This document shows, in pieces, positions 19,333 to 21,883 of a DNA stretch of 25,878 nt. The position numbers and the translations under genes are program-made. The notes under the pieces are model-generated. The model saw only the letters and a list, made by a program, of their open reading frames with translations, did not search any database and was not told the origin of the DNA. The DNA is taken from IMG/VR virus record IMGVR_UViG_3300011013_000075, positions 1 through 25,878 of that record, one strand, 5' to 3'. Positions within the stretch are counted from its first letter, which is position 1. Each line of letters starts with the position of its first letter. Source of the stretch: a virus.

Positions 19333-19471
19333 CTTGTATCATCATTAAGTTTAATTTTATCATTTTCAAATCATTCACTATCATTCGTTTTGTTAGCTTT
19401 GCTGATTTGTTTTCTGCTTTAGATACTAACTGCGCAGCTATACCTAAAGTTTCTTTAATTAGTTTTTCCAT
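19298..19471 (-). CDS. Small helical protein, 57 aa
   Basis: The ATG at 19469-19471 has an excellent GGAGGTG site four bases upstream, the strongest ribosome binding site in this operon apart from that of the methyltransferase. The product reads MEKLIKETLGIAAQLVSKAE, then NKSAKLTKRMIVNDLKMIKL and NLMMIQDDITRQPKQKD. It is almost entirely predicted helix with a Met/Leu/Ile-rich second half. It begins inside the end of the methyltransferase gene and ends 35 bases into the helicase gene. No family is recognised. It may be a helicase- or DNA-associated accessory factor, or its translation may feed ribosomes to the poorly initiated helicase; both ideas are inference. Confidence 0.6.
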   Translation of the reverse strand: MEKLIKETLGIAAQLVSKAENKSAKLTKRMIVNDLKMIKLNLMMIQDDITRQPKQKD

Positions 19472-20348
19472 TCATCACCTCCAAAATTATTGTTCCGATG
19501 TGGTAGGGGATTTGTGGGACGAGACTGTTTCCGAGACACTTAAGTCTGTCCACCCTGTTGGATATCCCATCAGCCACTCTACCCACGTTGGGTTCAACTG
19601 CCCAGTTGTTTTCTCTCTTCCACCCTCTGTATCGATCACTATTGTTGATAAACTTTTTTGTGTGCCCTTCTTCCCGGTATCCCTTCTTTGATAACCCAAT
19701 CTCGCTTCGTGAGCTGCCGGGGTTGGCCACAGTCTTGGCTCTCTTACTTGATCCGCCAATCTGATTTGTATTGTGTGACCACTTTTTCGTTTTAGATGGC
19801 CCTCGGCCAACGACTCTTTGATCTTGTTCAGATTGCTCCCCCCGGAGTATGCGTCTGGTGTTCGCCACAATCCAGACTCTTTCTCTTTTGTGTTTGGCAC
19901 CGACGCTAGAAGCTGAAATACTAAACGTCCTTGCGGAGTAGTCTTCACTTTCCAAGTTCTCGAGTACGGTGTCGAGACCGAGTTTAATGTGTCCACTAAC
20001 ATTTTCTCCAATAACCCAAGTTGGTCTGAGTTCTTTGATAAGTCTAAACATTTCTGGCCAGAGGTGTCTTGGATCTTCTTCACCTTTTTTTCTACCTGCG
20101 ACGGAGAAAGGTTGGCAAGGGTATCCTCCTGTGATGATGTCGATGGGAAAAAGTCCATCTGCTTTGAGTTTTTCATAATTCAATCCCTTAATATCTTCGT
20201 ACTGCTTAACATGTGGCCAATGTTTTTTCAGCACTTTTCTTGAATACAAATCTATATCACAAAAAGCTGCGGTTTCAAAACCACCAGTGGCTTCAAGTCC
20301 AAGACTAAACCCACCAATGCCACTAAATAAATCTAAATGTTTTAGAAT
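19455..20348 (-). CDS. C5-cytosine DNA methyltransferase (Dcm/HhaI type), apparent ATT start
   Basis: The 297-aa protein has motif I LDLFSGIGGFSLG (5-17), motif IV GGYPCQPFS (74-82) with catalytic Cys78, motif VI ENVSG (115-119), motif VIII KRERVWIVA (154-162) and the motif IX-X region ending CLGNSLVPQIPY (271-282). It should transfer methyl from S-adenosylmethionine to cytosine C5; the target site is unknown. The frame before LDLFSG has no ATG, GTG or TTG down to a stop at 20403-20405. The only well-placed candidate is ATT at 20346-20348, seven bases after AGGAGG, giving I/M-L-K-H-L-D. A TTG farther in (20247-20249) would delete motif I. The hydrophilic region 165-245 is also read in another frame. 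The role is probably protection from restriction. Confidence 0.93.
   Translation of the reverse strand: MLKHLDLFSGIGGFSLGLEATGGFETAAFCDIDLYSRKVLKKHWPHVKQYEDIKGLNYEKLKADGLFPIDIITGGYPCQPFSVAGRKKGEEDPRHLWPEMFRLIKELRPTWVIGENVSGHIKLGLDTVLENLESEDYSARTFSISASSVGAKHKRERVWIVANTRRILRGEQSEQDQRVVGRGPSKTKKWSHNTNQIGGSSKRAKTVANPGSSRSEIGLSKKGYREEGHTKKFINNSDRYRGWKRENNWAVEPNVGRVADGISNRVDRLKCLGNSLVPQIPYHIGTIILEVMNGKTN
19487..20176 (-). CDS. Overprinted 229-aa ORF nested out of frame in the methyltransferase gene
   Basis: This frame is open for 229 codons on the same strand as the methyltransferase and wholly inside it. It does not look like noise: it contains TWKVKTTPQGRLVFQL (74-89), SGLWRTPDAYSGG (101-113), LWPTPAAHEARLGYQ (149-163) and LNPTWVEWLMGYPTGWTDL (194-212). 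I recall a phage and prophage family with the same order of motifs (TWK...RLxFQL, LWPTP repeats, LNPxWVEWLMGxPxGWT), often found beside or overlapping cytosine methyltransferases; this is from memory. The ATG at 20174-20176 has AGGGA about seven bases upstream. Function is unknown. It could be a true second product, or a composition effect that recurs because both frames constrain the same DNA. Confidence 0.45.
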   Translation of the reverse strand: MKNSKQMDFFPSTSSQEDTLANLSPSQVEKKVKKIQDTSGQKCLDLSKNSDQLGLLEKMLVDTLNSVSTPYSRTWKVKTTPQGRLVFQLLASVPNTKEKESGLWRTPDAYSGGSNLNKIKESLAEGHLKRKSGHTIQIRLADQVREPRLWPTPAAHEARLGYQRRDTGKKGTQKSLSTIVIDTEGGREKTTGQLNPTWVEWLMGYPTGWTDLSVSETVSSHKSPTTSEQ

Positions 20349-21883
20349 GGTAAGTCCTCCTTTTCTGATTCCATATCCGGAACAGGGAGCTTTGAGATTC
20401 TTTCAAATGCTTCTGCGCCTATCTTCCACATTCTACTATTTTTCTTATCTGCTTTTCTAACTGCTTGATCAGCCCCAAGTTCTCTTAATCTTGCAGCGGT
20501 TCTTATTGTATCATAGCCTCTGAATCTTTGCTTATCTAAATATTGTGTTAAGAACTTCATTTTAAAATAAATGTATCCATCTTCATGATAACATTTGCCA
20601 TAAGCAACTTCATCCATTGTTTGAGCTTTACCTAAATCATTTACAAAAGAATGTAAGTGCTCATCAAATCTACCATCTAATGTTGTATCCTCTGCTAACT
20701 TTTCTATTTGTGCATTTTTAGCCAGCTCTGTTAATCTTGCTTTCCAATCTTTCTTTGTCATTTCAGGTAACACAATATTGATTTGATCAAAGCAGGCTTT
20801 TGCAAAAAGATTATATTCAAATAAATCGTTTGATCTTATGCGCACTTGTTTTTTATCTATCGTTATGTACCAATAAGAATTTTCAGTTTGATATTTTTTT
20901 ATATCTGTAAAGTCATATTCAATGTCTCCCTTGATACCAAACTTTCTTAATCTGCATTTTGGCTCTACACAGTAATTACACATGGGTCTTGTCTTACACA
21001 TGTAACCCTCGTATTCTTTGCCCTCATGAGATTTAATTGTTTTTGTTACCTCCTTATATTCCAAAGGTGGTTTCATGTATTTATTATTAAAATCATTTAC
21101 TTTGTTTTGCCAAGTGTCTGGCCATTTCTTTTTTGCATAAACAGAATAATGAAACAAAGCATTATCACGCCCTGCATTAGGAGTATCCGGGTCCATGCCC
21201 TGCAATACTCCAACCTCCATTAATTTTTCTATACAAGGTGGACCATCAAAACTATCTTGTTTTTTTGATGTCTTTATTTCTAAATTTTCAAGTTCTTCTT
21301 TTGTAACTTTATACTTGTCATATAGATCAAAGAACTGCTGCAGATCAGCACTACTACCATCGTCCAAATAAGCGTAGCGCATAGTACTAGAAGCATTAAA
21401 GTAAGGTAGATTAAGCCAAGACCCAACATCCCCACGATCTGAATTAACTTCGACTTGTTTAGGAAATATTTCACAGTTCCCATGACCCAAGCTTGCAGCT
21501 ATTTCCTGTAACTTGTCTACCACAAGTTTTGCCGGAACTAACTCCGAGACAAAAATAAATAAATGTGCACCACCACTTTTTGAACGACATGGTACTAATG
21601 GTAATTTATTTTTTCTGATTTCGGAAATTATTTTTTTAATATCTAAAGGATAAGTATCAATATCAATACAACCCCAAGTGCAATTGTTATCATCTCTAAT
21701 GGGGATACTGCCCAACGATGGCGCCTTACCCTCAAGATGATTTTCCCATAGTGCATCTGATAAAGCACCTCTTTTAGTAATTGCAACACCATCTACCTTC
21801 TTTCCCTTTGATCCACCTGCTGTGTACTGACCATATGCCCTGTCTAACCCTGCGAATACTTTTTTAAATTTGTTTATGTCCAT
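20342..21883 (-). CDS. AEP-type primase (primase-polymerase), TOTE/PriCT-like, 513 aa
   Basis: The N-terminal 170 residues show archaeo-eukaryotic primase motifs: CIDIDTYPLD with D74-x-D76 (metal ligands), RSKSGGAHLFIF (100-111) with His107, and CEIFPKQ (137-143) followed by GSWLNLPYF (154-162). A linker and a PriCT-like helical segment (GRDNALFHYSVYAKKKWPD, 238-256) follow, then four Cys (296, 302, 305, 310) in CKTRPMCNYCVEPKC that probably bind zinc or a cluster. The C-terminal 190 residues look helical, and the tail is acidic (DMESEKEDLPF). The enzyme would make primers for the polymerase encoded downstream. Its ATG lies directly after a structured leader (21884-21997), and the gene end contains the Shine-Dalgarno sequence of the methyltransferase. 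Confidence 0.88.
   Translation of the reverse strand: MDINKFKKVFAGLDRAYGQYTAGGSKGKKVDGVAITKRGALSDALWENHLEGKAPSLGSIPIRDDNNCTWGCIDIDTYPLDIKKIISEIRKNKLPLVPCRSKSGGAHLFIFVSELVPAKLVVDKLQEIAASLGHGNCEIFPKQVEVNSDRGDVGSWLNLPYFNASSTMRYAYLDDGSSADLQQFFDLYDKYKVTKEELENLEIKTSKKQDSFDGPPCIEKLMEVGVLQGMDPDTPNAGRDNALFHYSVYAKKKWPDTWQNKVNDFNNKYMKPPLEYKEVTKTIKSHEGKEYEGYMCKTRPMCNYCVEPKCRLRKFGIKGDIEYDFTDIKKYQTENSYWYITIDKKQVRIRSNDLFEYNLFAKACFDQINIVLPEMTKKDWKARLTELAKNAQIEKLAEDTTLDGRFDEHLHSFVNDLGKAQTMDEVAYGKCYHEDGYIYFKMKFLTQYLDKQRFRGYDTIRTAARLRELGADQAVRKADKKNSRMWKIGAEAFERISKLPVPDMESEKEDLPF
20356..20361 (-). promoter_or_regulatory. Consensus Shine-Dalgarno AGGAGG that fixes the methyltransferase start at ATT
   Basis: On the minus strand AGGAGG lies inside the last codons of the primase gene, exactly seven bases before ATT (20346-20348). 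The spacing is ideal, and no standard start codon stands in the right frame nearby. The primase TAA at 20342-20344 follows within two codons, so reinitiation by terminating ribosomes is likely. Confidence 0.7.

Follow-up and report, generated by a model that had tools for sequence, protein, structure and literature searches.

Cytosine C5-methyltransferases (MTases) that recognize more than one sequence are encoded by the Bacillus phages SPR and phi3T, whose enzymes carry several recognition modules between motifs VIII and IX of a single chain. Other C5-MTases consist of two polypeptides. In M.EcoHK31I, the small subunit is encoded inside the alpha gene but in a different frame, and M.EaeI is a further two-polypeptide enzyme of the same kind. 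As described for M.EcoHK31I, the larger subunit contains motifs I–VIII and X, along with the predicted recognition domain, and the smaller polypeptide contains motif IX (PMC3404938). The same source presents M.AquI as a split C5-MTase in which two chains make up one enzyme (PMC3404938).

The window, the whole stretch of DNA analyzed here, is a 25.9-kb virus record; among the ten larger frames scanned, PHROG matches include a DNA polymerase, two helicases, a primase, virion proteins, and a DNA ejection protein. All features given below lie on its minus strand. We use alpha for the C5-cytosine MTase frame (19455..20348) and beta for the frame nested at +1 in the same DNA (19487..20176). Alpha matches PF00145 (E = 1.5e-40, residues 3–235, over the Pfam cut-off) and phrog_363 (E = 2.1e-74, PHROG profiles). 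It carries motifs I–VIII and X, among them PCQ of motif IV with the catalytic Cys (20112..20120), ENV of motif VI (19998..20006), RER of motif VIII (19878..19886), and GN of motif X (19527..19532); in alignment A2 (31 sequences), PCQ, ENV, and GN are invariant, as are both Arg residues of motif VIII (RxR). There is no ATG, GTG, or TTG start near motif I in the window, and alpha most likely begins at an ATT (20346–20348) that follows, by 7 nt, an AGGAGG ribosome-binding site (20356..20361). An ATT is likewise placed after a G-rich site in L086–L089, L092, L095, and L171, where it is kept as TACCATT. This conserved, rare start may hold translation of alpha low.

Beta runs for 229 aa from an ATG to its stop, in a +1 relation to alpha that is conserved across loci, and a Shine-Dalgarno (SD)-like site, AAGGGA (20184..20189), stands inside alpha 7 nt 5' of its ATG. 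A sequence-only reading of this DNA had reported the nested frame, its ordered motifs, and an intact MTase frame across the same letters, and we recovered each of these, including all of the motifs it quoted. It had also placed the two proteins in fixed register, and rightly so: KRERVWIVANT lies over KEKESGLWRTP and VEPNVGRVADG over NPTWVEWLMG. Module families and the codon-position pattern in related genes point to a putative recognition region in beta, made up of modules that open WRTPDAYSGG and WPTPAAHEAR (19598..19870). It is followed by a motif-IX-like end, LNPTWVEWLMGYPTGWTDL (19541..19597), assigned from a pattern around MGYP and a weak hhalign match.

The locus shares with the SPR and phi3T enzymes a row of differing, exchangeable modules of ~40 aa between motifs VIII and IX; theirs sit in a single chain and a single frame, whereas the row in this locus occupies beta, an overlapping second frame, and not the catalytic chain. 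Compared by description rather than by sequence, it resembles M.EcoHK31I in having a large chain without motif IX (PMC3404938) and a nested small chain; it differs in that these are phage or prophage genes, with no restriction gene by Pfam in 10 neighbors, a recognition region apparently in beta, and modular cassettes. Alpha has motifs I–VIII and X without a recognizable IX, as does the large chain of the M.EcoHK31I type, and unlike a usual C5-MTase it does not combine motif IX and a recognition domain with the catalytic motifs in one polypeptide. The likeness to M.AquI is that two chains would make one enzyme; M.AquI is divided within its variable region, and its smaller subunit carries motifs IX and X (PMC3404938), whereas here motif X is in alpha and the genes are nested.

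We favor, with a probability of about 0.8, the reading that the locus encodes one C5-cytosine MTase as two polypeptides, a catalytic alpha and a recognition beta overprinted on it. Alpha, in frame 0, would bind SAM and perform catalysis through motifs I–VIII, would also carry motif X, and would have no folded recognition domain. Beta, in frame +1, would be started by its own ribosome-binding site inside alpha, dock on alpha, and supply the small domain in trans, as recognition modules closed by the motif-IX-like segment. We infer that methylation would need both chains, that the module set would decide the sequences methylated, and that methylation would shield phage DNA from restriction.

Beta belongs to a known phage protein family, as the sequence-only reading had suggested from its motif order: it is PHROG 1008, matched by beta of the window (E = 1.2e-29) and by 35/35 members of A1. 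The PHROG families that match beta (phrog_1008, phrog_31772, and phrog_10223) are named DNA methyltransferase, yet beta is without a catalytic motif. Records call members of the family DNA methyltransferase, putative methyltransferase, or hypothetical, and give no role. Beta is annotated in half of the phage records opened (5/10). It is called an 'internal gene' in Shelly and Lily and 'Mte8-like' in K1H and fTaEco03, and lies inside the MTase in all four; the annotation of PMG1 has beta alone. Three of the four E. coli RefSeq loci opened list alpha only, and the fourth lists two incomplete MTase pieces. A literature search returned no title or abstract on this overlap, although subscription journals were mostly uncovered, so that this is not proof of novelty. 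What was already known is the family, its annotation by some, and the M.EcoHK31I precedent; what is new is the spread of the arrangement, the frame handover, the recognition region assigned to beta, and the exchange of cassettes.

To collect loci, we queried viral contigs with beta and with alpha and then searched bacterial and viral contigs with the beta profile. Profiles of both proteins were then run against every open frame of 329 loci, a set that takes in the window and the named phage loci. Beta was found at +1 inside alpha in 329/329; this is the sole relation in 327, with other frames also matching in L220 and L228, both rearranged. Eighty of the loci were fetched with alpha and most others with beta, some being the same contig fetched twice. 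Since most came through beta, only the 80 alpha-query loci speak without bias on alpha lacking beta, and among these beta was at +1 in 80/80. The nested +1 frame is also present in 18 of 18 named loci from phages, plasmids, and E. coli, all of which were reached by way of beta or a gene carrying it.

From 296 complete alpha genes, with truncated genes, L220, and L228 left out, we obtained 245 unique ones, in which beta opens by about alpha residue 60 and reaches the alpha C-terminal part in all but L157. Strict limits on the extent of beta were passed by 224/245; 20 others missed them because the alpha tail is longer after the beta stop. Frequent stops in this frame, which the sequence-only reading had named as evidence against it, were not what we found: they are rare, amounting to the early end in L157 and a broken copy in L228.

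The family is broadly distributed. Searching with beta by tblastn, we found it in 198 of 50,697 phage records and 8 of 72,556 plasmids, and viral contigs contain at least 593 relatives. The beta profile gave 348 matches in bacterial and archaeal genome contigs; among the 80 of these that were listed, record titles name Bacteroidota, Pseudomonadota, Bacillota, Acidobacteriota, Nitrospirota, Chloroflexota, and Synergistota, and many are metagenome bins. No restriction gene was detected by Pfam in the 10 proteins neighboring bacterial members, whose domains were phage-like or unknown, and no annotated restriction enzyme was present in the plasmid and E. coli neighborhoods opened, most of which resemble prophages. 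We also considered a stand-alone family that invades MTases, and dropped it: beta without an overlying alpha occurs only as a short second copy in L289 and as modules beyond alpha.

The length of beta is not what alpha codons alone would produce. Across 300 synonymous resamplings of the window alpha, the longest +1 frame averaged 94 codons and never exceeded 224, against 230 observed. Among 83 representative homologues (MTase <80% identical), fewer than 1% of 300 resamplings reached the observed length in 79; the exceptions were L147 (fraction 0.063), L157 (0.027), L165 (0.023), and L168 (0.010). The other same-strand frame spans at most 67 codons in the loci listed. A chance open frame was dropped on the basis of this resampling. 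The beta SD, which is written in alpha codons, has at least 5 matching bases in 184 of 244 unique loci versus 27.8% of synonymous resamplings, and the first beta start codon in the 244 loci is ATG in 179, TTG in 35, and GTG in 30.

We compared codon positions between pairs of genes aligned on alpha, a procedure that favors alpha, using the 188 of 245 genes that had landmarks (57 without landmark patterns were left out). In pairs 70–85% identical, identity at alpha positions 1/2/3 was 0.946/0.982/0.804 upstream of the overlap. Position 3 identity rose to 0.918 where the overlap covers motifs IV–VIII, and in the variable region the values became 0.700/0.838/0.834, with residue identity of 0.765 for beta versus 0.644 for alpha. 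Over the motif-IX-like stretch, the same pairs had residue identities of 0.936 in beta and 0.823 in alpha. Pairs only 45–55% identical are saturated in the variable region, where alpha has a slight lead (0.263 versus 0.228 for beta, in an alignment made on alpha); in the motif stretch beta is still ahead (0.795 versus 0.668).

A set of 50 pairs using each locus once, in which shared ancestry is still present, gave the same picture. In the variable region, position 1 has more differences than position 3 in 46 of 47 untied pairs, and over the motif-IX-like stretch it does so in 31/34; position 3 differs more than position 1 upstream of the overlap (39/40) and downstream (30/35). As a control, the variable region of ordinary C5-MTases had more differences at position 3 than at position 1 in 25/25 pairs, which are not independent. 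The better-conserved frame hands over inside the gene, from alpha outside the overlap to beta in the variable region. Excess constraint on the second frame, a check proposed by the sequence-only reading, is evident in codon positions, residue conservation, and the SD. Its suggestion that the family was born by overprinting is arguable for the N-terminal half of beta alone, over motifs IV–VIII; across the variable region, conservation is higher in beta, so the passenger there may be alpha.

We next asked which MTases carry beta, using 58 bacterial PF00145 loci, 30 from 18 genomes chosen for holding beta and 28 from an even draw within one order, with only returned loci compared. The Pfam match ends at position 162–229 of 324 in all 15 loci with beta. 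Of the 43 without it, 42 reach the IX–X end (in some cases as two pieces), and L350 is truncated by the end of its contig. In this sample, beta therefore accompanies the loss of motif IX from alpha. In the 43 loci without beta, the length of the +1 frame is close to that expected from resampling (fractions 0.05 to 0.94), and a single partial match to the beta profile occurred, in L332 (E = 4e-7), an ordinary MTase whose longest frame is 62 codons.

A recognizable motif IX is missing from alpha: a broad pattern for it between VIII and X was found in 1/188 alphas versus 30/42 ordinary MTases. A motif-IX-like pattern around MGYP is present in 239 of 245 unique betas; the motif-IX-like end reads LNPxWVEWLMGYPxGWTDL. 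When beta was compared with ordinary MTases by hhalign, the sole alignment fell on their motif IX and was weak (P 0.18 and 0.16, from overlapping alignment sets). The position of this match is suggestive; its strength is not.

Between a hairpin and this end, beta is a row of units, each opening with a W-x-T-P-like step. Dropping units of fewer than 30 residues, we counted 614, with a median of 41 residues and one to six per beta; the clustering used sorts them into 113 families, of which 58 have a single member. Beta of the window has two units, from families of 40 and 17 members. The units behave as exchangeable cassettes: 137 unit pairs (85 loci) share 85% identity or more while the catalytic parts of their loci share no more than 65%, and in the extreme pair the units are 97% identical versus 41% for the catalytic parts. 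The eight largest module families occur at differing positions within the row. Repeats of a module inside one beta are scarce, with 5 observed versus 26.4 expected and a minimum of 12 in 2000 shuffles (an expectation that ignores relatedness among loci).

In L011, L022, L033, L047, and L057, units run past the alpha stop, where the alpha frame is closed. Differences between pairs of these tails beyond alpha fall 105/79/183 by beta codon position over 575 codons (pairs not independent), third-position-heavy as in an ordinary gene. This bears on whether the family could be an artefact of translating an MTase gene, a possibility that the sequence-only reading had raised against itself: beta modules are present also in DNA that the MTase frame does not keep open. 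In four long betas, the downstream tails matched no Pfam family over the cut-off. Short downstream frames that open with a WRTPTA module occur in L011 (4287-4733), L022 (4268-4726), L033 (4009-4446), and L057 (1053-1493); the part after the module is of unknown nature, possibly helix-turn-helix, and in L080 it lies inside the beta frame itself. L289 has, at 2120-2350, a second, short, non-nested beta of one module plus motif after its alpha/beta gene, possibly a spare specificity cassette.

An AlphaFold2 model of alpha is confident over the motif X helix and, apart from a dip at residues 78–86, over most of motifs I–VIII, and falls below pLDDT 50 at residues 169–275. By Foldseek, it resembles M.HhaI, M.HaeIII, and other C5-MTases over ~170 columns; likewise, matches of the alpha profile to solved MTases extend to about its position 171, apart from a weak second one at motif X. 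The beta model has a mean pLDDT of 57.7, best at 110–150 and in the hairpin at 72–92. It gave no PDB chain with Z of 2 or more in VIA-align, and a profile search of solved structures with beta returned a single meaningless match (E = 2.4). Both models derive from shallow alignments (32 and 28 sequences), so the low pLDDT in alpha may partly reflect variability. No Pfam or NCBIfam model matched beta, and 35 members gave scattered, unrelated weak Pfam matches, none to motif IX. Hydrophobic residues make up 20% of the alpha variable region, 29% of beta from the same DNA, and 42% of the alpha catalytic part; in the variable region, alpha and beta have the same aromatic share, 4.5%.

A few loci depart from the common layout. 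In mycobacteriophage Llama (L165, 905-1661), a frame change splits alpha into gp74 and gp75, and a short beta is without the half over motifs IV–VII; this is possibly a three-piece enzyme or a case of recoding. In Paenibacillus macquariensis (L228, 2658-3667), alpha motifs I–VIII and the motif-IX-like end of beta share one open frame, motif X is in another frame, and the N-terminal part of beta is interrupted, representing either decay or a natural single-chain form. L220 (1144-2774) has an HNH endonuclease-like stretch, recognized by eye, between motifs I and IV, open in frame with the alpha start and the beta body, perhaps an intron or homing insert. L291 (109-951) has a single stop in the alpha variable region, after which motif X resumes in the same frame, and beta is open throughout. 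L157 (3173-3643), the only complete locus in which beta ends before the motif, may represent an error, decay, or a real variant.

Several other explanations deserve consideration. In an arrangement strictly like that of M.EcoHK31I, alpha would hold the recognition domain, beta would add motif IX only, and the beta modules would be a linker. M.EcoHK31I is described in this way (PMC3404938), and nearly every locus keeps alpha open across the variable region, L291 being the exception. Codon positions and residue conservation nonetheless favor beta in that region, where the pLDDT of alpha is below 50, and the beta modules behave as cassettes and persist past the alpha end; we regard this arrangement as unlikely. 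We hold it still less probable that beta is a separate accessory protein, such as an inhibitor, regulator, or anti-restriction factor, that shares the gene by happenstance. The lack of a recognized fold for beta would suit such a protein, as would the fact that joint action with alpha is itself deduced. But an accessory protein would not track the loss of the IX–X end, and among the 58 bacterial loci beta is found only with MTases whose Pfam match lacks that end; moreover, beta finishes in a motif-IX-like segment. Of the roles proposed by the sequence-only reading, partner or specificity factor is the best fit, while we saw no sign of an inhibitor.

A single chain, produced by a ribosomal frameshift that leads from alpha into beta past motif VIII, would account for the division between a catalytic frame 0 and a recognition frame +1, and the L228 prophage joins alpha I–VIII and the beta end in one frame. 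Yet beta in L228 is itself interrupted, motif X returns to frame 0, and beta has its own SD and start. A late shift also needs no N-terminal half of beta over motifs IV–VIII, which is constrained (position 3 identity 0.918 versus 0.804 upstream). We dropped frameshift fusion given the SD and start, this constrained half, and motif X in frame 0, and consider it very improbable. There is hardly any chance that conservation of MTase codons generated this open frame and its motifs as a side effect. Part of the similarity in the nested frame does come from alpha, as the partial match in L332 illustrates, but resampling, the ordinary-MTase controls, beta modules outside alpha, and the flip in codon positions contradict this account. 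That a real protein family is kept as a dual-coding pair with the MTase, as had been proposed from the letters of this one locus, is strongly supported by the resampling, codon positions, SD, controls, and the 329/329 loci.

Returning to the two-polypeptide reading, we lean, by a modest degree, toward a wider proposal: that a widespread class of phage C5-MTases splits the enzyme over two frames, with beta a multispecific subunit of mobile cassettes whose exchange would rewrite the alpha linker and beta specificity together, and that some phages keep spare cassettes beyond alpha or in a second short beta. If so, these genes would constitute an unusually long and widespread nested same-strand pair in phages and, because the better-conserved frame changes within one gene, a clean test case for the upkeep of overlapping genes. 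Annotation that keeps one frame, as in E. coli RefSeq and PMG1, would lose half an enzyme. The reading would also give a role to an unexplained phage family, account for MTases that seem to have neither recognition domain nor motif IX, and offer a natural modular system for studies of DNA sequence recognition.
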